From Candidatus Tritonobacter lacicola (GTDB taxonomy: Bacteria > Auribacterota > Tritonobacteria > Tritonobacterales > Tritonobacteraceae), in assembly GCA_030765135.1 (NCBI GenBank), contig JAVCDC010000145.1, forward strand, positions 1 through 64,000: DNA of 64,000 nt. The letters run 5' to 3'. Of this stretch, positions 2,051 through 27,846 are shown one piece after another. Position numbers and translations under genes: made by a program. Numbering within the stretch: position 1 is the first letter of the stretch; each line of letters opens with the position of its first letter. The notes below the pieces were generated by a model. It saw only the letters and a program-made list of their open reading frames with translations. It ran no database searches and had not been told where the DNA came from.

Positions 2051-3445
2051 ATGGGAACAAGGTCCATGTCTTTTCCAGCCATCTTCTGTGCATCACTGCT
2101 CGTCCTGGTGTTCGGAGGGTGCGGCGAGAAAAAGCCGGAGGGACCGGCCGTTCTATCGTACAAGGAGGCCGGCAAGCACATCGGCGAGGTGAGCACGGTA
2201 GAGGGCACCATCGTCTCAACGTACAGCGGGAAGAACAGCCTCAAGCTGAACTTCGACACCAACTACCGGCGCTACCTCTCCATAACGATACCCCTCAAAT
2301 ACCTGGAGCAATTCCCGGAGAACCCGCAGAGCTACTACAAGGGAAAGAAGATCCGGGCGACAGGAAGAATCACCAGGTACAGCGGGGCCCCGAGCATGCT
2401 CGTCACCGACGGCCCCCAGATCCGCCTCGCCAAGCCTGCGGAGGGGGAACCGCCCCCCCCCGCGGTTGTGCAACCCGTCTTCAACAGGGAGTACCTGCCG
2501 AAGGCCATCGAAATCATCGACGGGGCCGGAGATTCGCTCCGCATCATAATGTATTTGTACAAGTACAGCGGTCACGTAAAGAAGATCTACCGGGCCCTTA
2601 AAAAGGCGGAGGAGCGGGGCGTGGATGTCAAGATCATCATGGACGACGAAATCGCCTCCAACAGGGAATCGGCGCCCTACCTCGAGCAAGCCGGCGTCGA
2701 CGTCAAGATCGACGGGCCGGAGAAGAAGACACACTGCAAGATCATCATCGCGGACTCCGACAAGGTCCTCATGGGCTCGACGAACTTCAGCAACTCCTCG
2801 TTAGGAAGGAACAACGAGACGAACGTCTTCATCGAGAGCAGGGCCGTCGCGGGCTACTACGAGGACTATTTCAATAAGCTGTGGAAAGACCCCTCGCGCG
2901 AGCATCTCCTTTCGAGCAAGCCGGCCGTCGAGGGGATAATTCCCCTGGTAAACAGGGAGTACCTCTGGAGCCTCCTGCCGCGGCTGAACGGCGCGAAGAA
3001 GCGTATATGGGTGGTGATGTACGGGACGAAGCTCTTCGAGGAACCGGACAACCCGGTCCACATGGTCCTCTCCTCCCTCGTCAGGGCGACGAAACGCGAC
3101 GTGGATGTGCGCGTAGTCCTCGACATGGGACCCGACGAGGAATGGTGCAGGATCACAAACGAATTGAACCGGGAGGTGGCCGGCTATCTCTCGAAGAGGG
3201 GCGTGCCGGTAAAGTTCGAATCTCCGGATGTCATCACCCACGCCAAGCTCATCATCATCGATGACGAGGCATTCGTGGGGTCGACGAACTGGGGCTACGG
3301 CGGGTTCAAGCGGTACAATTCAACTAACGCCATAATCAGCGACCGGAAAGCCGTCGGGGCGTACGAAAAATACTTCCTGAATCTCTGGGAAGGAGAGCCC
3401 TACGGCATCGAGCAGGTGGAGATAGAAGAGAAAGCGGCCGCCTGA
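2051..3445 (+). CDS. Phospholipase D-like domain lipoprotein with two HKD motifs
   Basis: Two HxK(x4)D motifs: THCKIIIADSDKVLMGSTNFS and THAKLIIIDDEAFVGSTNWG; lipobox-like LVFGGCGEKK. Confidence 0.88.
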   Translation: MGTRSMSFPAIFCASLLVLVFGGCGEKKPEGPAVLSYKEAGKHIGEVSTVEGTIVSTYSGKNSLKLNFDTNYRRYLSITIPLKYLEQFPENPQSYYKGKKIRATGRITRYSGAPSMLVTDGPQIRLAKPAEGEPPPPAVVQPVFNREYLPKAIEIIDGAGDSLRIIMYLYKYSGHVKKIYRALKKAEERGVDVKIIMDDEIASNRESAPYLEQAGVDVKIDGPEKKTHCKIIIADSDKVLMGSTNFSNSSLGRNNETNVFIESRAVAGYYEDYFNKLWKDPSREHLLSSKPAVEGIIPLVNREYLWSLLPRLNGAKKRIWVVMYGTKLFEEPDNPVHMVLSSLVRATKRDVDVRVVLDMGPDEEWCRITNELNREVAGYLSKRGVPVKFESPDVITHAKLIIIDDEAFVGSTNWGYGGFKRYNSTNAIISDRKAVGAYEKYFLNLWEGEPYGIEQVEIEEKAAA

Positions 3446-3604: not shown

Positions 3605-3704
3605 ATGGCGGTAGCCGTCCCGAATGCTTTCGGGGCGCACCCTACCCCGGTCCCGGTGGGACTTCCCTCCGGCGGGGTCCCTACCGGGAAAGGGTGCGGC
3701 TACC
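3605..3704. repeat. Complex multi-hairpin intergenic inverted-repeat element
   Basis: GGTAGC (3610-3615) + CGCACCCT (3636-3643) pair with AGGGTGCGGCTACC (3691-3704); nested CCCGAA/TTCGGG hairpin and TCCCGGTGGGAC/GTCCCTACCGGGA hairpin. Confidence 0.7.
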
Positions 3705-3739: not shown

Positions 3740-5140
3740 ATGGAGAACCAGATAGAGTACTACAGGGACCCGGAGGTCCGCGAGAGGATCGCCGAGTACT
3801 GCGGCGGCTCGGCCATGGAGCCGGAGCTCTGCACAGCCGAGTACCTCGTCGGCTACGGCCAGGCCATTGATTCTCCAGGGGGGTACGTCTCCACACCGAA
3901 GGACGGGTTCAGCTGGATACTGGAGCAGGGCCTCGACATCTTCCGGTCGATCTGGGACAAGAACCACACGCTCAGCGTCCTGGACGTGGAATATTTCAAC
4001 ATAGATTTCCCCGGCCGGGTCTACCTCCACCAGCGCGAAACGTTCGGGCTCCTGGAGCCAATCTACGAGGTCATCCTGGGCGTATTCGGACGCTTTGAAA
4101 TCCAGCCGATGGTCAACGTGACCGGGCAGGGATACCACTTCTCTTTTCAAATCCAGTCCGCCACGCGGGCGGACCTCCGCCTCGAGAAACTCGGCAAACT
4201 CATCGAATCGGTGGAGGCAAAATACGAAAGCTCGGGCAGCAAGAGGCACCGGCACGTATCGCTCCGCCACGGCCTCTCCTTCGACGGGATGGGCCGCGTC
4301 ATGGAGTACCTCACCCACACCATAATCAGGGAATCCGCCGGAAAGGTAGGCCTCCCCCTCACCGTCACCGACGTGGCCGTCGGAAAAGGCAAGACAGGCC
4401 GCGAGGCGATATCCCTCGACCTGTCGTGTTTCGGGGACCCGATCTTCATGCGGGACCTGAGGTGCCCGTTCTCGACGCACCAGAAACACAAGATGGACGT
4501 CTGGAAAGTCGGGAAAACCATATCCGACGGCACGCCCGTACAGGTGGCGATCCCCCGGAAGAACATCGAGATGGACCGCGTTTTCAGCCTCAGGCGGAAC
4601 TTCGCCGCGGCAGCAGCCTTTGCCCGGGACGTCCACTGCTTCATCCCCGACTATTCCGTGAACTTCAACAAGGTCATAGACGAGTACCTGGAATCCAGGC
4701 TGTTTGAATTCCACCGGTGGTTCGACAGCGTGGAGCAGGATCACTGGACGGAGTGGGACCGTACATACAGGGCGATGGACCTGAATATAGTCCCCCCGTG
4801 CGTCCGGCAGCCCCTCATCAGGCCCAACGACAATCTGCTCAAGCCCACGAACCTGCAGACCCTGACCCGCTGCCTCCTGGCGCGGGGGTGGCATCCGAAG
4901 CACATCGCCGGACTCGTGCGGGCGAAGTGGGAGGGACCCCACGGGTGGGGAGACCTGTGGTCCCAGTTCGACGCCGGATCGCGCTCCTCGTTCTACGTGA
5001 GGATGTTCAGCGGTCTGATTGCCGACGGAACGGACCGGCTCGTGGACCAGAACTGCATCTCCCACCAGGAGAAGGGATTTTGCATACAACCGAACTGCGG
5101 CTACAACCTGGCGGACTACCGCTGGGATGGCAGATTCTAA
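3740..5140 (+). CDS. Putative single-chain archaeo-eukaryotic primase (AEP)-like protein with PriL-CTD-like Cys domain, copy 1
   Basis: LDVEYF (D82/E84), GQGYHFSF (H133), ISLDLSCFGDPIFMRDLRCPFSTHQKHK (D227...H247), C-terminal VPPCV...DQNCISHQEKGFCIQPNCGYNLADY (C354, C439, C448, C453). Paralogous to the next gene. Confidence 0.6.
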   Translation: MENQIEYYRDPEVRERIAEYCGGSAMEPELCTAEYLVGYGQAIDSPGGYVSTPKDGFSWILEQGLDIFRSIWDKNHTLSVLDVEYFNIDFPGRVYLHQRETFGLLEPIYEVILGVFGRFEIQPMVNVTGQGYHFSFQIQSATRADLRLEKLGKLIESVEAKYESSGSKRHRHVSLRHGLSFDGMGRVMEYLTHTIIRESAGKVGLPLTVTDVAVGKGKTGREAISLDLSCFGDPIFMRDLRCPFSTHQKHKMDVWKVGKTISDGTPVQVAIPRKNIEMDRVFSLRRNFAAAAAFARDVHCFIPDYSVNFNKVIDEYLESRLFEFHRWFDSVEQDHWTEWDRTYRAMDLNIVPPCVRQPLIRPNDNLLKPTNLQTLTRCLLARGWHPKHIAGLVRAKWEGPHGWGDLWSQFDAGSRSSFYVRMFSGLIADGTDRLVDQNCISHQEKGFCIQPNCGYNLADYRWDGRF

Positions 5141-6602
5141 TGAGGACGCAGTAATGGCACCATCGGTAATGTCGGACAAGGAGGTCAGGGACCTGATCTC
5201 GTATTACAAATCGCGGGACGTCCGCAAACGCCTGGACGAATATTGCAACTACAGTGCAAAAAAGGAGTTGAGCTGCGAGTATCTCATCGGCTTCGGGGAG
5301 CCGTTGAAGAGGCTGGGGTACAACGTGCCGGTCATGGGAGTCCCGGCCCACCGCCTGGACGACCTGATCGATATGGGCCTCGACCTCTTCCGGTCCGTAT
5401 GGGACCACGAGGGGACACTGGCCATCCTCGACATAGAGTATTTCAACCTGGACTCCCTCGCCACCCTCTACGCGAACCCTGTAAAATATTTCAAGTTGCT
5501 GGAGCCCACCTACAGGGCCATAACGGACGTCCTGGACGGCTACGGGATAACCCATCTCAATAACACCACGCCATCGGGCTACCACTTCGAGTCCAAGATA
5601 CCGTTCTCGACAAAAGCACACAAGAAGCTGGAGAAAATCGGGCACCTCGAAAGCTCACTGAAATCCCAGTACGCCTCCCTTCCCGAAAGCGACCATAAGT
5701 GCACGAGAAAAATGACGGCCGGGGCCGCGCTCGGCTACAGTGCAATCGGCCGATTGATGGAGTTCCTCTGCCACAGGGTCATAGAAGCCGCCGGCCCGTC
5801 CAGCAAGCTCCCCATAACCATAGCCGACACGGCACCGGGCGAAAACGACATGCGGCGGGAAGGAGTAAGCCTCGACATCACGCAGTACGGCGACAACCTC
5901 AACATGCGCTCCATCAGGTTCGCTTTCTCCGGCCACCAGAAGCACAAGGTCTACGTGAACAGGTTCGGGGCCGATCTCGCCCGCAGGACACCGGTATACG
6001 CGTGCGTGCCGAGAAACGACCATACAATAAAAGAGCTCTACGACGTGAGGAAAGGCCTGGATTCAGCGCGCGAATATGCCGCCACCGTTTCGGCCAGGAT
6101 TCCCAAGGCCTCTCGAGGGTGGGCGAAGCTCGCGGACGACTACATGGCATCCTCCCTATTCGCGTTCCACAGGGAATTCGACTCCGTTAATCACGACCCG
6201 CGGGACAGGTGGACAAAGACATACCTGGATCTAGACCTGGAGAGGATGCCGGCGTGCGTTGCCATGCCCCTCATGAACGCCAACCCCTGGCTCCTGATGC
6301 CCACCAATATCCAGACGGTATGCCGGGTCTTCTACGCCATGGGATGGCACCCCAAGCACATCGCCGGGATGATAAGGGCACACTACAGCAGGGGACCGTA
6401 CTGGCCCATCGACTGGAACAAATACAACGCCGAGGTTAAAGCGAACTTCTGGGTGCGCGTCTACTGCGGCATGATCGCGACGGGAACAGATTCCCTCGAT
6501 GACCTCAACTGCGCCTCCCAGGCCTTCAAGTGGTTTTGCCCGAAACCCTTCTGCGGCCACAACCTGGCAGACTACAGGGCGAAGATAGAGTCGAGGGCCT
6601 GA
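5127..6602 (+). CDS. Putative single-chain AEP-like protein with PriL-CTD-like Cys domain, copy 2
   Basis: Same motifs as copy 1: LDIEYF, SGYHFESK, VSLDITQYGDNLNMRSIRFAFSGHQKHK, MPACVAMPL...DLNCASQAFKWFCPKPFCGHNLADY. ATG at 5127 or 5154 preferred over the track's 5019. Confidence 0.6.
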   Translation: MADSNEDAVMAPSVMSDKEVRDLISYYKSRDVRKRLDEYCNYSAKKELSCEYLIGFGEPLKRLGYNVPVMGVPAHRLDDLIDMGLDLFRSVWDHEGTLAILDIEYFNLDSLATLYANPVKYFKLLEPTYRAITDVLDGYGITHLNNTTPSGYHFESKIPFSTKAHKKLEKIGHLESSLKSQYASLPESDHKCTRKMTAGAALGYSAIGRLMEFLCHRVIEAAGPSSKLPITIADTAPGENDMRREGVSLDITQYGDNLNMRSIRFAFSGHQKHKVYVNRFGADLARRTPVYACVPRNDHTIKELYDVRKGLDSAREYAATVSARIPKASRGWAKLADDYMASSLFAFHREFDSVNHDPRDRWTKTYLDLDLERMPACVAMPLMNANPWLLMPTNIQTVCRVFYAMGWHPKHIAGMIRAHYSRGPYWPIDWNKYNAEVKANFWVRVYCGMIATGTDSLDDLNCASQAFKWFCPKPFCGHNLADYRAKIESRA

Positions 6603-22013: not shown

Positions 22014-23420
22014 TCAGCAGTGCTTGAATGTCCCCTTGCCTTTTTCCCTCTTCTTCGCCTTGTGCCCCGGGTGCGAGGCGTAAAACTCAAGCGCCCGGCG
22101 TATATCATTAAGGAGAAGGTCGGCCATGTCGCGGCTGAAGCCCTCTTTGACGACGACACGCTGGACGGTGAGATCCTCGCGGTTTTTCGGCATCGTGTAG
22201 GCGGGGACCAGCCAGCCGCGGTCGCGGATCCTTTCCGCCAGGTCGAAGAGGGTGAAGTTGGTCTCCTTCTTCAGCTTCCAGCAGAAGACCGGGATGTCGC
22301 TGCCGTCGGTGATCAGCTCGAAAGGCCCCAGCTTGGCGATCTCTCCCGACAGGTAAAGGGCGACGTCCTGGCAGGACTGCTGGATGCGCCGGTACCCGTC
22401 CCGGCCCAGGCGCAGGAAGTTGTAGTACTGTGCCACGATCTGGTTGCCGGGGCGGGAAAAGTTGATAGCGAAGGTAGGCATCTCTCCCCCGAGGTAGTTG
22501 ACGTAAAAGATCAGGTCCTCCGGCAGTTCCTCCCGGTCCCTCCAGACCACCCAGCCCACGCCCGGGTAGACCAGGCCGTACTTATGGCCCGAAGCGTTGA
22601 TCGACTTCACCCACTTGAGGCGAAAATCCCACTCCAGGTCGGTCTGAATAAAAGGGGCAATGAAGCCGCCGCTGGCCCCGTCGATATGGATGGGGATTTC
22701 CCACCCGGTCTTGCGATTCAGCTCGTCCAGGGCGTCGTTGATCTCCTTGACCGGCTCGTACTCACCGGTAAAGGTGGTCCCCATGATGCCGACGATCCCG
22801 ATCGTGTTCTCATCGCAGAGTTTCATCGCCTCTTCGGCATTGAGGCAGAAGCGGTCACCCTCCATCGGGACCTGGCGGGGCTCGATATCCCAGTAGCGGC
22901 AGAACTTATCCCAGCAGATCTGGACATTGATCCCCATTACCAGGTTCGGCCTGTCGTCCGGCTTTCCCTTCGCCTTCATCCGCTCCCGCCACTTCCATTT
23001 CATTGCCATCCCCCCCAGCATGCAGGCCTCGCTGGAGCCGATCGTCGAGCAGCCGACGGTGTTGGCGGCGTCCGGGGCGTGCCAGAGGTCCGCCAGGATG
23101 TTGACGCAGCGCATCTCCAGCTCGGCGGTCTGGGGGTACTCGTCCTTGTCGATCATGTTCTTGTCGAAGGTCTCCGCCATCAGCTGCCGGGCCTCCGGCT
23201 CCATCCAGGTGGTGACGAATGTGGCCAGGTTGAGCCGGGAGTTGCCGTCGAGCATCAGCTCGTCGTGGACCACGTTGTAGGCCGTCCGCGGCAACATCTC
23301 CACTTCCGGGATCTTGTACTTCGGGACGGTCGTGGTCAAGGCCCGCGCCGCGTAGGTCGGCGTGAGGACAGCGTCCTCGGGCCGCATTTTACTATGATCT
23401 ACTTTCTTGTGAAGAATCAT
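22014..23420 (-). CDS. gadB: Glutamate decarboxylase
   Basis: PLP site SINASGHKYGLVYPGVGWVVWR; HIDGASGGFIAPF; length 468 aa; ends GTFKHC. Confidence 0.95.
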   Translation of the reverse strand: MILHKKVDHSKMRPEDAVLTPTYAARALTTTVPKYKIPEVEMLPRTAYNVVHDELMLDGNSRLNLATFVTTWMEPEARQLMAETFDKNMIDKDEYPQTAELEMRCVNILADLWHAPDAANTVGCSTIGSSEACMLGGMAMKWKWRERMKAKGKPDDRPNLVMGINVQICWDKFCRYWDIEPRQVPMEGDRFCLNAEEAMKLCDENTIGIVGIMGTTFTGEYEPVKEINDALDELNRKTGWEIPIHIDGASGGFIAPFIQTDLEWDFRLKWVKSINASGHKYGLVYPGVGWVVWRDREELPEDLIFYVNYLGGEMPTFAINFSRPGNQIVAQYYNFLRLGRDGYRRIQQSCQDVALYLSGEIAKLGPFELITDGSDIPVFCWKLKKETNFTLFDLAERIRDRGWLVPAYTMPKNREDLTVQRVVVKEGFSRDMADLLLNDIRRALEFYASHPGHKAKKREKGKGTFKHC

Positions 23421-23481
23421 CTTTCCCTCCCTCCTTTGAGTAGGTTATGTTTTTCTTTTCTGCCAGGCTTTGGCAGGTATG

Positions 23482-24963
23482 TCATTGCGCGTTTGCCGCA
23501 GTACCGCTTTCATTCGAAACCTGGCGCCACTGCGGTTTTTTAAACGAATTTATCAAAAACGGCAGACCCACGAATATAATCAAACCGCCTGAAACAAGCC
23601 CCACATAAAGTGTGGGATTGCCTACCGGCAGGTTGCTCGGCGGGAAAAAACCGACAACAAGAGAGAAACAAACTCCGATCAAACCGATTCCGGCAACAAC
23701 ACAGACGCCGAAAATTCCACCCGGAATTTTGTAGGAACGGGGCAGGTCCGGCCGGGCTATCCGCAGTTTGATAGCCGCGGCATACATCAGAATATACATC
23801 ACCAGATACACGGTAATTGTCATAGCGGACAGAAGGAAAAATGCCACACTTACATTGTCCATAATAAAGTAGAGGCAAGCCAATATTGAAACAATAACTC
23901 CCTGGATTAAGAGTATATTGATCTGCATTCCGCTTTTATTTGTTTTTGCCATAAATGGCGGTATTTCGCCCTGTTTCGCTGTTTCAAGCAAGCCTCTACT
24001 GGGTCCGCTTATCCACGACATTACTCCCCCGATAGCGCCGAAAGCGGTTAATAAAGCTATTATCGGGGTCAGAAAACCGAGATGGAATTTATCCAGCAAG
24101 TCCTTGAAGGCCTGCATAACACCAGCGGTAAGACTAATTTTATTAGCAGGAAGCACGGTCGCAATTGCGAGTGACCCCAGCAGGAAAATTGCAAATATAA
24201 TACCCATTGCTATAAACATACTTACAGGAAATTGCTTGGCGGGATTTTCGAGTTCGTTGGCATGCACAGCGTGCACTTCAACGCCGGCAAACAGCAAAAT
24301 AATTCCGGCAAGAAAAGCGATACTTCCCAGCCCGGTAATGTGAGGGAAGAAGCTGGGATGGGGATGTTCTCCGAGTGCTTTTTCCGCAGTGGCAACCGCA
24401 GGGGAGGCTTCCATAAAACAAATTGGATTCCCCTGGGAGATCCAGATAATCGCGAGTACTATTATAATAATCCCCGGCAGTATAGTACCGACAAGCACAC
24501 CATATTGTGTAACCTTGCTGACGACGGATGTCCCGATCAAAGCGATAAGAGTGGCCAACCAGTAACAGATAAGAATGACTATTCCGGTATAGAGCCCTTT
24601 GTTCGCCAGTCCCGGGGCCATAACGACATATGCCAAAACCCCGGCAGCAAAAGCCAGAGTAGTAGGATACCACACCACGTTTTGGATCCATTGCAGCCAT
24701 ATTGCTGTAAATCCCCAACGGGAACCGAATGCTTCCTTGACCCAGGTGTACACTCCCCCGCCTTTTTTACTGAACGCGCCTCCAAGTTCCGCAGCAACAA
24801 GCGAGGCCGGTAGAAGAAACATTATTACGGCGAAAAGAATATAGGCAAGCATAGAAAGTCCCTCTTTCGCCATCATCGGCAACCCTCGCAGACTGGTAAC
24901 CACGGCAGCTACCGTCATCATACTGAGAGTGAAAACAGTTATCTTTTTCGTGCCCTTTTCCAT
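23482..24963 (-). CDS. gadC: Glutamate/GABA antiporter-like APC permease
   Basis: FTLSMMTVAAVVTSLRGLPMMAKEGLSMLAYI; ISGPSRGLLETAKQGEIPPFM; adjacent to gadB. Confidence 0.88.
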   Translation of the reverse strand: MEKGTKKITVFTLSMMTVAAVVTSLRGLPMMAKEGLSMLAYILFAVIMFLLPASLVAAELGGAFSKKGGGVYTWVKEAFGSRWGFTAIWLQWIQNVVWYPTTLAFAAGVLAYVVMAPGLANKGLYTGIVILICYWLATLIALIGTSVVSKVTQYGVLVGTILPGIIIIVLAIIWISQGNPICFMEASPAVATAEKALGEHPHPSFFPHITGLGSIAFLAGIILLFAGVEVHAVHANELENPAKQFPVSMFIAMGIIFAIFLLGSLAIATVLPANKISLTAGVMQAFKDLLDKFHLGFLTPIIALLTAFGAIGGVMSWISGPSRGLLETAKQGEIPPFMAKTNKSGMQINILLIQGVIVSILACLYFIMDNVSVAFFLLSAMTITVYLVMYILMYAAAIKLRIARPDLPRSYKIPGGIFGVCVVAGIGLIGVCFSLVVGFFPPSNLPVGNPTLYVGLVSGGLIIFVGLPFLINSFKKPQWRQVSNESGTAANAQ

Positions 24964-25142
24964 ATCTTCCCCTCCTTGTTATTTCATTTTCACACAAAAC
25001 TGCGGGATTATTTTTATTCTTTATTTACTTAAAATTGTAATTTCGAGATCGGTTCATGGAAAGAAAAATCCGCCAAATCCCTGCCCTGGTAGACAGGCGC
25101 GGTTTCAACCGGCTTCCGGTTCCGCATTTTCAGTCCGCCCCA

Positions 25143-26300
25143 TCACTTCTCCCTGTGCTCGTAGCCCCCGGTGTACGACGGGTAGGTGTATTCGCCCTTC
25201 AAGAAATCAGTTTTCAGGTTTACATCAGTGGCGCCGATATTCAGGAAATCCACCGTGGGGGAAATCAGTTCCTCGTACTGCTTCGGACGCCGGTCCTTGA
25301 GGTAGTAGTACTTCGGCGCCGGGTGGGTCATCCCGTAGTATGCGGGGAGGCAGTCAGCGACGAGGAGCGTGTCCTGCTGATGGGAGGCCTCGACGATTAC
25401 GTCCCCGTGCGGCCCGCAGACTATGGAGTTCCCCCCGTAATGCCACTCGTCCTTGCCCCGCTGCTCGTAGCCGCAGCGGTTGGCGTAGGCGAAGAAGATA
25501 TTGTTGGCGTAGGCGTAGGCCGGAAATAAAAGCCGGGCAACATCGGGATAGGGTACCTTGCTCCGTTCACCGTTGGGCAGGGTGTAATAATTGTCGGCGG
25601 CGGTCGGACCGACGATCAGCTTCGCCCCCTTGAGCGCCAGGATGCGCGCGAGCTCGGGAAACTCGCACTCGTAGCAGTTGAGAACCCCCACCGGGAAACC
25701 GAAGATCGCGTGGACAGGGTAGTTGCTGTTCCCGAAGCTCCAGTTATCACGCTCCTGCTGGCCGTAGAGGTGTGTCTTATTATAGCTATCGAGGAGCTCA
25801 CCCTTCTCGCTGATGACCGCGATGCTATCGTAATACTTCATGCTCACGTCGGGCTCTTTGACCTTCTCCGCGTAGGGGACGATAAGGGCCATGTTGTTAT
25901 TCTTGGCAATCTCGCGGGCTTTGGTAATGCTGGGGCCGTCCTTGAATTCCGCGACCTCCTTCGCCGCCTCGGGACTCAGCGTGTAACCCGGGACGTAGAG
26001 CTCGGGGAAGGCGAGGAGCTGCACGCCGTATTTCGTGGCGGTCTTGACCGCCTCCTCCAGGCGGGCCATGTTCTTCTCCGACGCCCCCTCCCCGCAGGCG
26101 GCCTGCGCCTGGTAGATACCAAGGCGGATGCCGGCTCCTTCCGGCGGGGTCCCGGGGTAGATCGAGGTCCGGACCTGGAGCTTCCGGTAGCTGTCAGTCA
26201 CCGATTTTCTATACCCCGGTGTGCCGTCGCATGATTCTTCCTGGGCAACCACCGGCAGAGCTACCAGTACGACCGTCAGCGCTGCCAGTACTCTCTTCAC
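25143..26300 (-). CDS. Exported carbon-nitrogen hydrolase (nitrilase superfamily)
   Basis: Signal peptide MKRVLAALTVVLVALPVVAQ; catalytic E-K-C: FPELYVPGY, NKTHLYGQQE, VLNCYECEFPE. Confidence 0.88.
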   Translation of the reverse strand: MKRVLAALTVVLVALPVVAQEESCDGTPGYRKSVTDSYRKLQVRTSIYPGTPPEGAGIRLGIYQAQAACGEGASEKNMARLEEAVKTATKYGVQLLAFPELYVPGYTLSPEAAKEVAEFKDGPSITKAREIAKNNNMALIVPYAEKVKEPDVSMKYYDSIAVISEKGELLDSYNKTHLYGQQERDNWSFGNSNYPVHAIFGFPVGVLNCYECEFPELARILALKGAKLIVGPTAADNYYTLPNGERSKVPYPDVARLLFPAYAYANNIFFAYANRCGYEQRGKDEWHYGGNSIVCGPHGDVIVEASHQQDTLLVADCLPAYYGMTHPAPKYYYLKDRRPKQYEELISPTVDFLNIGATDVNLKTDFLKGEYTYPSYTGGYEHREK

Positions 26301-26313
26301 TTCCTATCCTCCT

Positions 26314-27846
26314 TTACGGTTTGAGGGCTTTCTCTTCTTTCCCCCGGACCTTCTCGACCGCCAGGGTAAGGAAATTAACCAGGTAGGGAGTCCCCTGGTT
26401 ATAGTCTACCTTTACCTCCGCGTGAAACTGCTCGCCGTAGAGCATCCTCGATTTGCTCTTCAGCGTCTGGACATACCTTGATTTGGCCGTAATAACATAC
26501 TCTTCGGGCAGGGAAACGGGTGAGACCGCCCATCCGTGCACTTCGACAGCCGTGAAAGGGTTGGGAATGCCCTTGAAGATCGGGCGGTCTTCATATTCCT
26601 TTAAGATGGTTATCGGGTTCATCTTGATGTCTTCTTCGAGATCCAGGGAGGTGATGTCCGACCACCCCATGCTCCGCACAAAGGTGTAGCCGTGAGCTAT
26701 GCAGGTCGCCTGGTGGCCGAAGCATATGCCGAGCAGGGGGATGTCGGTTTCCCGTATGATTTCGAACTCACCGTTGTACTCGAACATCGGCAGGTTCTGC
26801 TGTCCCGCGTTGTCTCCACTGCAGATAATGGCGACGGGCTCCCTCTTCAGCTTCTTCAGCATATCCATCGACACCTCGTAATGTGGAACCGTCAAGGTCT
26901 CAAGCCCGAGGTCGAGCCCCTCCACGAACTTCGCGAGCTCGGTGAAGGTAAAACCGTTCATCTGGTTGCCGATGACCAGCACGTAGTCCTTCTCCGGGGG
27001 TTCCGGCACGGGGGGCTTCCCGGGAGAGTAGGGAATGAAGACATTGATCTGGGGGGCATAGCCGTACCACCTTTTAATCAGAAGCCGCAGGTAGCGGCAA
27101 GAGACGGGCTCTATATCGATGATGTTCCTGAAGGTGTCGTTTTTTTCTATATGCGTTCCCTCGATGTCCTTCCATGATCTCCCGTCGCTGCTCATCTGCC
27201 AGACGAAATCCCTGAGCCAACCGTCCTTGCCTCCGGATATGTTCGAAAGCATCCAGATTCGTGAGACTTCCGTCGTCCTGCCGAGGTCGAACTTCACCCA
27301 CGGCGTTGGATCGCCGGGAGGAGTCGAACGCCAGCACGTAACCTGGCCGGGGTCATCGATATCCACGATATTCTTCGGGTTTTCTCCGCTTGAAACCTCG
27401 ACCTTCCGTACGGGGACTCTCACCAGGTTCATGAAGGAATCATCGGAAGTTGTATCCAGATAAAAACGGGTCTGGCCCCAGGGCCCTTTTCCCCCGGTGG
27501 AGTCCACCGCCTGCGCGCGCCAGTAATACCGCGTTTTGTCAGCGAGCGCGTCTTTCTCCTCAACCCGCTTCTCGGTGATGTCCCGGTTTGTTTCGGGGAT
27601 GTTTCTATATTCGATCAAAGAGTCGCTGTCGAAAGTGGGGACTTTATCAACCTGATAGATGTAGGTTCGTTTGCCGCTTCCACCGGAAGCGTTCAATATC
27701 GACAGCAAGGGCCTTCTGTTCGTCGCGATTATGTCCCAACTGGGGTTGTTCGTTAAGCGGGGCGCGGTGAGCGGCTCCGAAGAGCCCCCGGCCACGCAAA
27801 AAACACTGACGGCGAAAACCAATAAATAGGGAAAAATCCGCTTCAT
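26314..27846 (-). CDS. Exported protein with FN3-like, F5/8 type C (discoidin) and class I glutamine amidotransferase domains
   Basis: Signal peptide; discoidin-like WVKFDLGRTTEVSRIWMLSNISG...SSDGRSWKDIEG...CRYLRLLI; GATase LLGICFGHQATC and EQFHAEV. Confidence 0.82.
   Translation of the reverse strand: MKRIFPYLLVFAVSVFCVAGGSSEPLTAPRLTNNPSWDIIATNRRPLLSILNASGGSGKRTYIYQVDKVPTFDSDSLIEYRNIPETNRDITEKRVEEKDALADKTRYYWRAQAVDSTGGKGPWGQTRFYLDTTSDDSFMNLVRVPVRKVEVSSGENPKNIVDIDDPGQVTCWRSTPPGDPTPWVKFDLGRTTEVSRIWMLSNISGGKDGWLRDFVWQMSSDGRSWKDIEGTHIEKNDTFRNIIDIEPVSCRYLRLLIKRWYGYAPQINVFIPYSPGKPPVPEPPEKDYVLVIGNQMNGFTFTELAKFVEGLDLGLETLTVPHYEVSMDMLKKLKREPVAIICSGDNAGQQNLPMFEYNGEFEIIRETDIPLLGICFGHQATCIAHGYTFVRSMGWSDITSLDLEEDIKMNPITILKEYEDRPIFKGIPNPFTAVEVHGWAVSPVSLPEEYVITAKSRYVQTLKSKSRMLYGEQFHAEVKVDYNQGTPYLVNFLTLAVEKVRGKEEKALKP

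Follow-up and report, generated by a model that had tools for sequence, protein, structure and literature searches.

A tandem pair of genes in the window, the whole stretch of 64,000 nucleotides analyzed here, raises the question of what two proteins resembling AEP primases do on a bacterial chromosome. Enzymes of this type otherwise start DNA copying in archaea and eukaryotes; here they are encoded by ordinary chromosomal genes that occur in at least five bacterial phyla. A survey of the superfamily describes bacterial AEPs as LigD-type repair enzymes or mobile-element primases, and treats PriL as all but confined to the chromosomal primases (PMC5862659). By joining an intact AEP core to a four-cysteine, PriL-like domain, a chromosomal family in bacteria would bridge the LigD-type and mobile-element groups and would bear on the origin of the PriL and PriCT domains. 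Such small single-chain proteins would also help to test the part that the Fe-S domain plays in priming.

The gene pair and its surroundings

The source assembly comprises 3.2 Mb and is 94% complete, and the window is part of a 74-kb contig. The two genes lie in tandem on one strand:

3740..5140, + strand: copy A (ORF A), a 466-aa AEP-like primase-polymerase with a C-terminal four-cysteine domain (from the ORF, predicted fold and alignment)
5154..6602, + strand: copy B (ORF B), a tandem paralogue of A with the same architecture (from the ORF and alignment)

The copies are 41% identical (E 2e-114), which confirms the two adjacent, paralogous ORFs described in an earlier note on this DNA, and a search of the whole source genome with copy A detected no third copy. 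The same note called the ORFs overlapping, which they need not be. The ORF B frame is open from a TTG at position 5019, and the overlap is an artefact of this mechanical upstream extension into copy A. Judged from the sequence, copy B most likely starts 13-28 nt past the copy A stop, either at ATG 5154, which has a GAGG ∼8 nt upstream, or at ATG 5169, which is conserved in relatives and corresponds to a Met at the matching residue of one B relative.

The neighbors of the pair in the window encode a PLD-domain lipoprotein, PEPCK, and Trk transport. The earlier view of a tandem duplication on a bacterial chromosome without plasmid or phage genes is supported. The predicted lipoprotein (2051-3445), just upstream of the pair, contains two PLD-type domains and is NucT/DrmC/cardiolipin-synthase-like, with all named families below cut-off; at locus L025, a PLD-domain protein likewise lies ∼7 kb upstream of its pair. 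Ahead of copy A, a 300-nt gap harbors a long GC-rich hairpin (3610-3704; predicted -64 kcal/mol, z -4.6 versus shuffles), the arm of which has no second occurrence in the window and which matches no Rfam family. Elsewhere, reading positions 22014-27846 by eye suggests a glutamate-decarboxylase-like enzyme, an amino-acid antiporter, a secreted carbon-nitrogen hydrolase, and a glutamine-amidotransferase-like protein, a cluster that resembles an acid-resistance (Gad) cluster.

The catalytic core

The identification of AEPs relies on three motifs, hhhDhD/E (motif I), GxH (motif II), and hD with basic residues (motif III), all of which are present in both copies:

3983..3991, + strand: copy A motif I, D82-x-E84; invariant in 33 homologues
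4130..4138, + strand: copy A motif II, G131-Y-H133; G and H invariant in 33
4418..4492, + strand: copy A motif III, D227 and R238-x-x-R241-x-P-x-S245-T-H-Q-K249; D227, R238, R241, S245, and K249 invariant in 33
5430..5438, + strand: copy B motif I, D-x-E
5577..5585, + strand: copy B motif II, GYH
5874..5948, + strand: copy B motif III, D and R..R...S..K

The nine residues D82, E84, G131, H133, D227, R238, R241, S245, and K249 remain invariant in these homologues, which span at least five phyla and go down to 25% identity, and D82 and E84 are the acidic residues whose conservation the earlier note anticipated. The fold was predicted with AlphaFold for copy A from a 23-sequence alignment (pLDDT 84, pTM 0.89), and a Foldseek search of the PDB with this model, the structural check proposed earlier, returns AEPs at all of the first 21 ranks. 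The best match is the LigD PolDom 2r9l (E 7e-3, prob 1.00); the leading matches, which also include Prim-PolC (6sa0 and 5op0) and CAPP (7p9j), have probabilities of 0.97-1.00, and PriS structures (9f26 and human PriS, 4mhq) appear lower in the list. Among BFVD viral models, the named matches include AEP proteins, one of them a phage TOTE-type primase domain. The E-values are modest (best 0.007 in the PDB and 0.001 in BFVD), which counts against the explanation favored below; the argument for an AEP fold is that the list consistently consists of AEPs, not the E-values. The model and the alignment show in A and B a predicted palm-type AEP core with an intact D-x-E / GxH / D...R..R...S..K pattern, and the PriS-like catalytic core first read from the letters agrees with both fold prediction and conserved motifs.

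Recognition, distribution, and evolution of the family

Copies A and B have no significant match in Pfam and NCBIfam, where only Terminase_5 appears for B (at 0.28). Searches of PHROGs with copy A and its alignments give noise, and PDB sequences yield no match by phmmer or profile search. DNA_primase_S and DNA_primase_lrg have no match in the whole source genome, with archaeal controls positive. Since the Pfam, NCBIfam, PHROG, and PDB-sequence searches are all null, the family goes unrecognized by these libraries; it is an undescribed family within the known AEP superfamily.

Within the phylum, 12 of 44 genomes are carriers: four families have the genes in every genome sampled (12/12), and the remaining families in none (0/32), a pattern that suggests vertical inheritance on the chromosome. 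When 384 genomes were sampled more broadly, carriers outside the phylum numbered 17 and belonged to 12 families (∼5% of the genomes sampled there), and phylum-wide searches around four of these outside carriers extend the family to at least five phyla. Relatives are found in Candidatus Erginobacter and in an Auribacterota, a PVC-group, and a Lindowbacteria MAG. A and B likewise stand in tandem in one outside genome (G276); most of the others are single-copy, and in some a further, diverged paralogue that lacks the cysteines is present. The tree splits A-like from B-like sequences by a well-supported branch (100/99), and both A and B are under purifying selection, as estimated from relatives (dN/dS ∼0.05-0.17 for A-like pairs and ∼0.10-0.22 for B pairs).

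A third, diverged class of paralogues (L069:3204-4472, L070:6356-7624, L071:8029-9297, and loci L098-L103) resides on a different contig from the main copy. Its three aligned members have kept the catalytic residues and lost the cysteines.

This distribution bears on two other roles. The pair could represent a domesticated or resident replication primase of a mobile element, similar to PolpTN2 or PrimPol-PV1, that primes an integrated element; the known bacterial PrimPol-PV1 AEPs reside almost without exception on mobile elements (PMC5862659), and the cysteine layout of PolpTN2 is similar. However, tblastn detects no homologue in 50,697 phage and 72,556 plasmid records, nor does a pattern search of IMG/VR; the readable genes around the pair are of chromosomal type, no helicase or Rep gene is recognized beside it, and the family-wise distribution is vertical, which together make this origin quite unlikely. 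A component of an anti-phage or conflict system, such as a TOTE-like or CRISPR-associated primase, is suggested by the Foldseek similarity to CAPP and to the phage TOTE-type primase domain. We regard it as highly improbable: the similarity lies in the common AEP core, the distribution within the phylum is vertical rather than patchy, and reading the loci examined revealed no defense neighbors, with no cas or TOTE genes recognized by eye among the conserved neighbors of the 31 clustered loci.

The C-terminal four-cysteine domain

Both copies end in a region with one upstream and three C-terminal cysteines:

4799..4801, + strand: copy A first cysteine, PPC354; Cys in 30/33 homologues
5054..5098, + strand: copy A C-terminal cysteine triad, C439, C448, and C453; spacing 9 and 5 in nearly all Cys-bearing members
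6255..6257, + strand: copy B first cysteine (PAC)
6510..6554, + strand: copy B C-terminal cysteine triad

These cysteines, their C-x8-C-x4-C spacing, and the catalytic acids D82 and E84 are all present where the earlier note placed them. The PPC cysteine and C-terminal trio, in the order seen in PriL, are found in 30 of the 33 members, with spacings of 78-86, then 9 (16 once), then 5; the corresponding values are 80/17/40 in human PriL and 90/6/9 in PolpTN2, and the cysteines of an Asgard (Gerd) PriL are C252/C334/C343/C388 (PMC12770985). In L068, the last cysteine is displaced. The predicted conservation of the cysteines thus holds for 30/33 homologues and fails in three divergent paralogues that lack all or most of the four. 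Because the acids are invariant in 33 sequences and the four cysteines occur in 30 of them, neither set is a product of chance.

Whether this region derives from PriL is less easily read. Two homologues match DNA_primase_lrg (PF04104) at E 0.009-0.02 with 15-16 bits versus a cut-off of 22.4, over the region with the first cysteine; the curated cut-off of DNA_primase_S or DNA_primase_lrg is not reached. Folded alone, the C-terminal domain is predicted to be a separate helical domain (pLDDT 89, pTM 0.85) that has no Foldseek match in the PDB. Neither hhalign of the family against human and yeast PriL-CTD (the yeast row held a few wrong letters) nor HMM scoring against human and yeast PriL with 2,000 shuffles each is significant. 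The hhalign comparison with PolpTN2 (E 0.09) is not significant either; in it, motifs I and II each line up with their PolpTN2 counterparts.

These null results, in which a CTD-only model of pLDDT 89 meets no PriL-CTD in the PDB and the profile tests against human and yeast PriL are negative, would suit an AEP core joined to a zinc-binding, helix-turn-helix-like DNA-binding domain of unrelated origin, as would weak Terminase_5 (gpP-like) matches in 6/39 members (best E 0.036). That reading is possible, but we lean away from it: the cysteine order and first spacing agree with PriL and PolpTN2, the domain begins with the PPC motif, and PF04104, which was named beforehand, is among ∼14 noise-level Pfam matches and falls in the expected region. 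The C-terminal domain is plausibly, and somewhat more likely than not, a true PriL-CTD homologue, and it seems about as likely that the cysteines hold an Fe-S cluster. Of the PriS-PriL-CTD fusion originally proposed, the PriS-like core and the cysteine order and first spacing stand, while the fold search with the C-terminal domain and the PriL profile tests lend it nothing.

Genomic neighbors and a probable role in repair

Clustering of the genes around 31 loci reveals one recurrent neighbor. In seven genomes that do not belong to the phylum, the next gene downstream, in the same orientation, encodes an AP_endonuc_2 TIM barrel:

L057, L058, L060, L062, L063, L065, and L068: AP_endonuc_2 neighbor, an uncharacterised PF01261 subfamily

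Of the named models, those of CbiR, which is among the best NCBIfam matches, of sugar epimerases, and of endonuclease IV come closest, and none of them reaches its cut-off. The nine metal ligands of endonuclease IV (H, H, E, D-x-x-H, H, D-x-H, E), the positions of which are listed for a chlamydial enzyme (PMC13113976), are invariant in all seven sequences, which are only ∼25-29% identical to the first of them. CbiR, a phosphodiesterase of the endonuclease-IV superfamily, likewise has conserved metal-binding residues (PMC7733943); the neighbor could be CbiR-like or act on another substrate, which counts against a repair role. In two further genomes, an HhH-GPD glycosylase is encoded ∼1-2 kb downstream. 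At L057 and L060, the TIM barrel is followed, by reading, by hisS and aspS.

Two roles are ruled out by gene content. All 26 of the carriers tested encode a normal DnaG, so the proteins do not substitute for it. Ku is encoded by only one of the 26 and is absent from the source genome; since it is so rare among carriers, the proteins are not polymerases of LigD/Ku-dependent NHEJ.

An auxiliary replicative primase, acting for the chromosome beside DnaG on the lagging strand or under stress, for example, would account for an intact AEP active-site pattern in chromosomal, conserved genes that sometimes lie near housekeeping genes (read as hisS-, aspS-, and Clp-like ATPase genes). It is nevertheless unlikely. 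DnaG is found in 26/26 carriers, the gene is dispensable, as no copy occurs in the rest of the phylum's families, and the recurrent neighbor is nuclease-like rather than replisome-like.

Repair synthesis or repriming is favored because the neighbors include endonuclease-IV-type and glycosylase genes and because mycobacterial Prim-PolC, which works together with EndoIV and glycosylases during base excision repair (PMC5663958), provides a precedent. On balance, we therefore favor A and B as diverged copies of an undescribed AEP family that would act as chromosomal repair primase-polymerases in gap filling or repriming. Repair is the likeliest role as judged from neighbors in other lineages; no repair gene adjoins the pair in the window itself, which counts against it. 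Of the replication, repair, or defense functions suggested earlier, repair gains from these neighbors, whereas replication is disfavored by the universal DnaG and defense found no support on reading the neighbors.

A possible mechanism

In a repair primase-polymerase of this kind, the four cysteines of the PriL-CTD/PriCT-like module would hold an Fe-S cluster, or zinc, and the module would position the template and initiating nucleotide for the catalytic core of the same chain. Once an endonuclease-IV-type nuclease or a glycosylase had carried out the excision, the enzyme would fill short gaps or re-prime, much like mycobacterial Prim-PolC, and would act alongside DnaG without replacing it. 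The phylum has the gene as a diverged tandem pair, and as both copies keep the active site, A and B may be separate enzymes or partners in a heterodimer. The complete picture, in which single-chain primases with a genuine PriL-type Fe-S domain are inherited vertically on the chromosomes of several bacterial phyla, with two specialized, cooperating copies in this phylum, and serve an undescribed excision repair coupled to an EndoIV-type enzyme, is a tentative one that we put forward with considerable doubt.

Comparison with known systems

The best structural matches of the copy A core are mycobacterial Prim-PolC and LigD PolDom, at 10-13% identity. We know of no comparable four-cysteine C-terminal domain in either. 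LigD works with Ku, which is absent from 25/26 carriers of the A/B family. CAPP (7p9j) has the AEP fold in common with A and B; it is CRISPR-linked, whereas no cas genes were recognized near the loci examined.

PolpTN2 of the Thermococcus nautili plasmid pTN2 (NC_014115), like A and B, is a single chain with an AEP core and a C-terminal part containing four cysteines, in the order C-90-C-6-C-9-C. Unlike them, it is plasmid-borne and archaeal, extends over 917+ aa with additional domains, has Gln in place of the motif II His, and shows no significant sequence similarity in the profile comparison above. The parallel drawn in the earlier note holds for the cysteine order and first spacing and not for the profiles; as far as sequence can tell, the likeness is an analogy and PolpTN2 is not a detectable close relative.

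The fused PriS-PriL of DPANN Cluster 2 and Undinarchaeota (PMC7414124) is likewise a single-chain cellular primase with a catalytic and a PriL-type part. It differs in its archaeal origin and in serving its host as the replicative primase, and the two families that describe the DPANN type, DNA_primase_S and DNA_primase_lrg, are without match in the source genome. PrimPol-PV1 enzymes are nearly exclusive to mobile elements and often fused to a helicase (PMC5862659), unlike the A/B family, which is chromosomal and has no helicase. They resemble A and B as bacterial AEP cores that often have an alpha-helical PriCT domain, for which kinship with the Fe-S domain of PriL has been proposed (PMC5862659).
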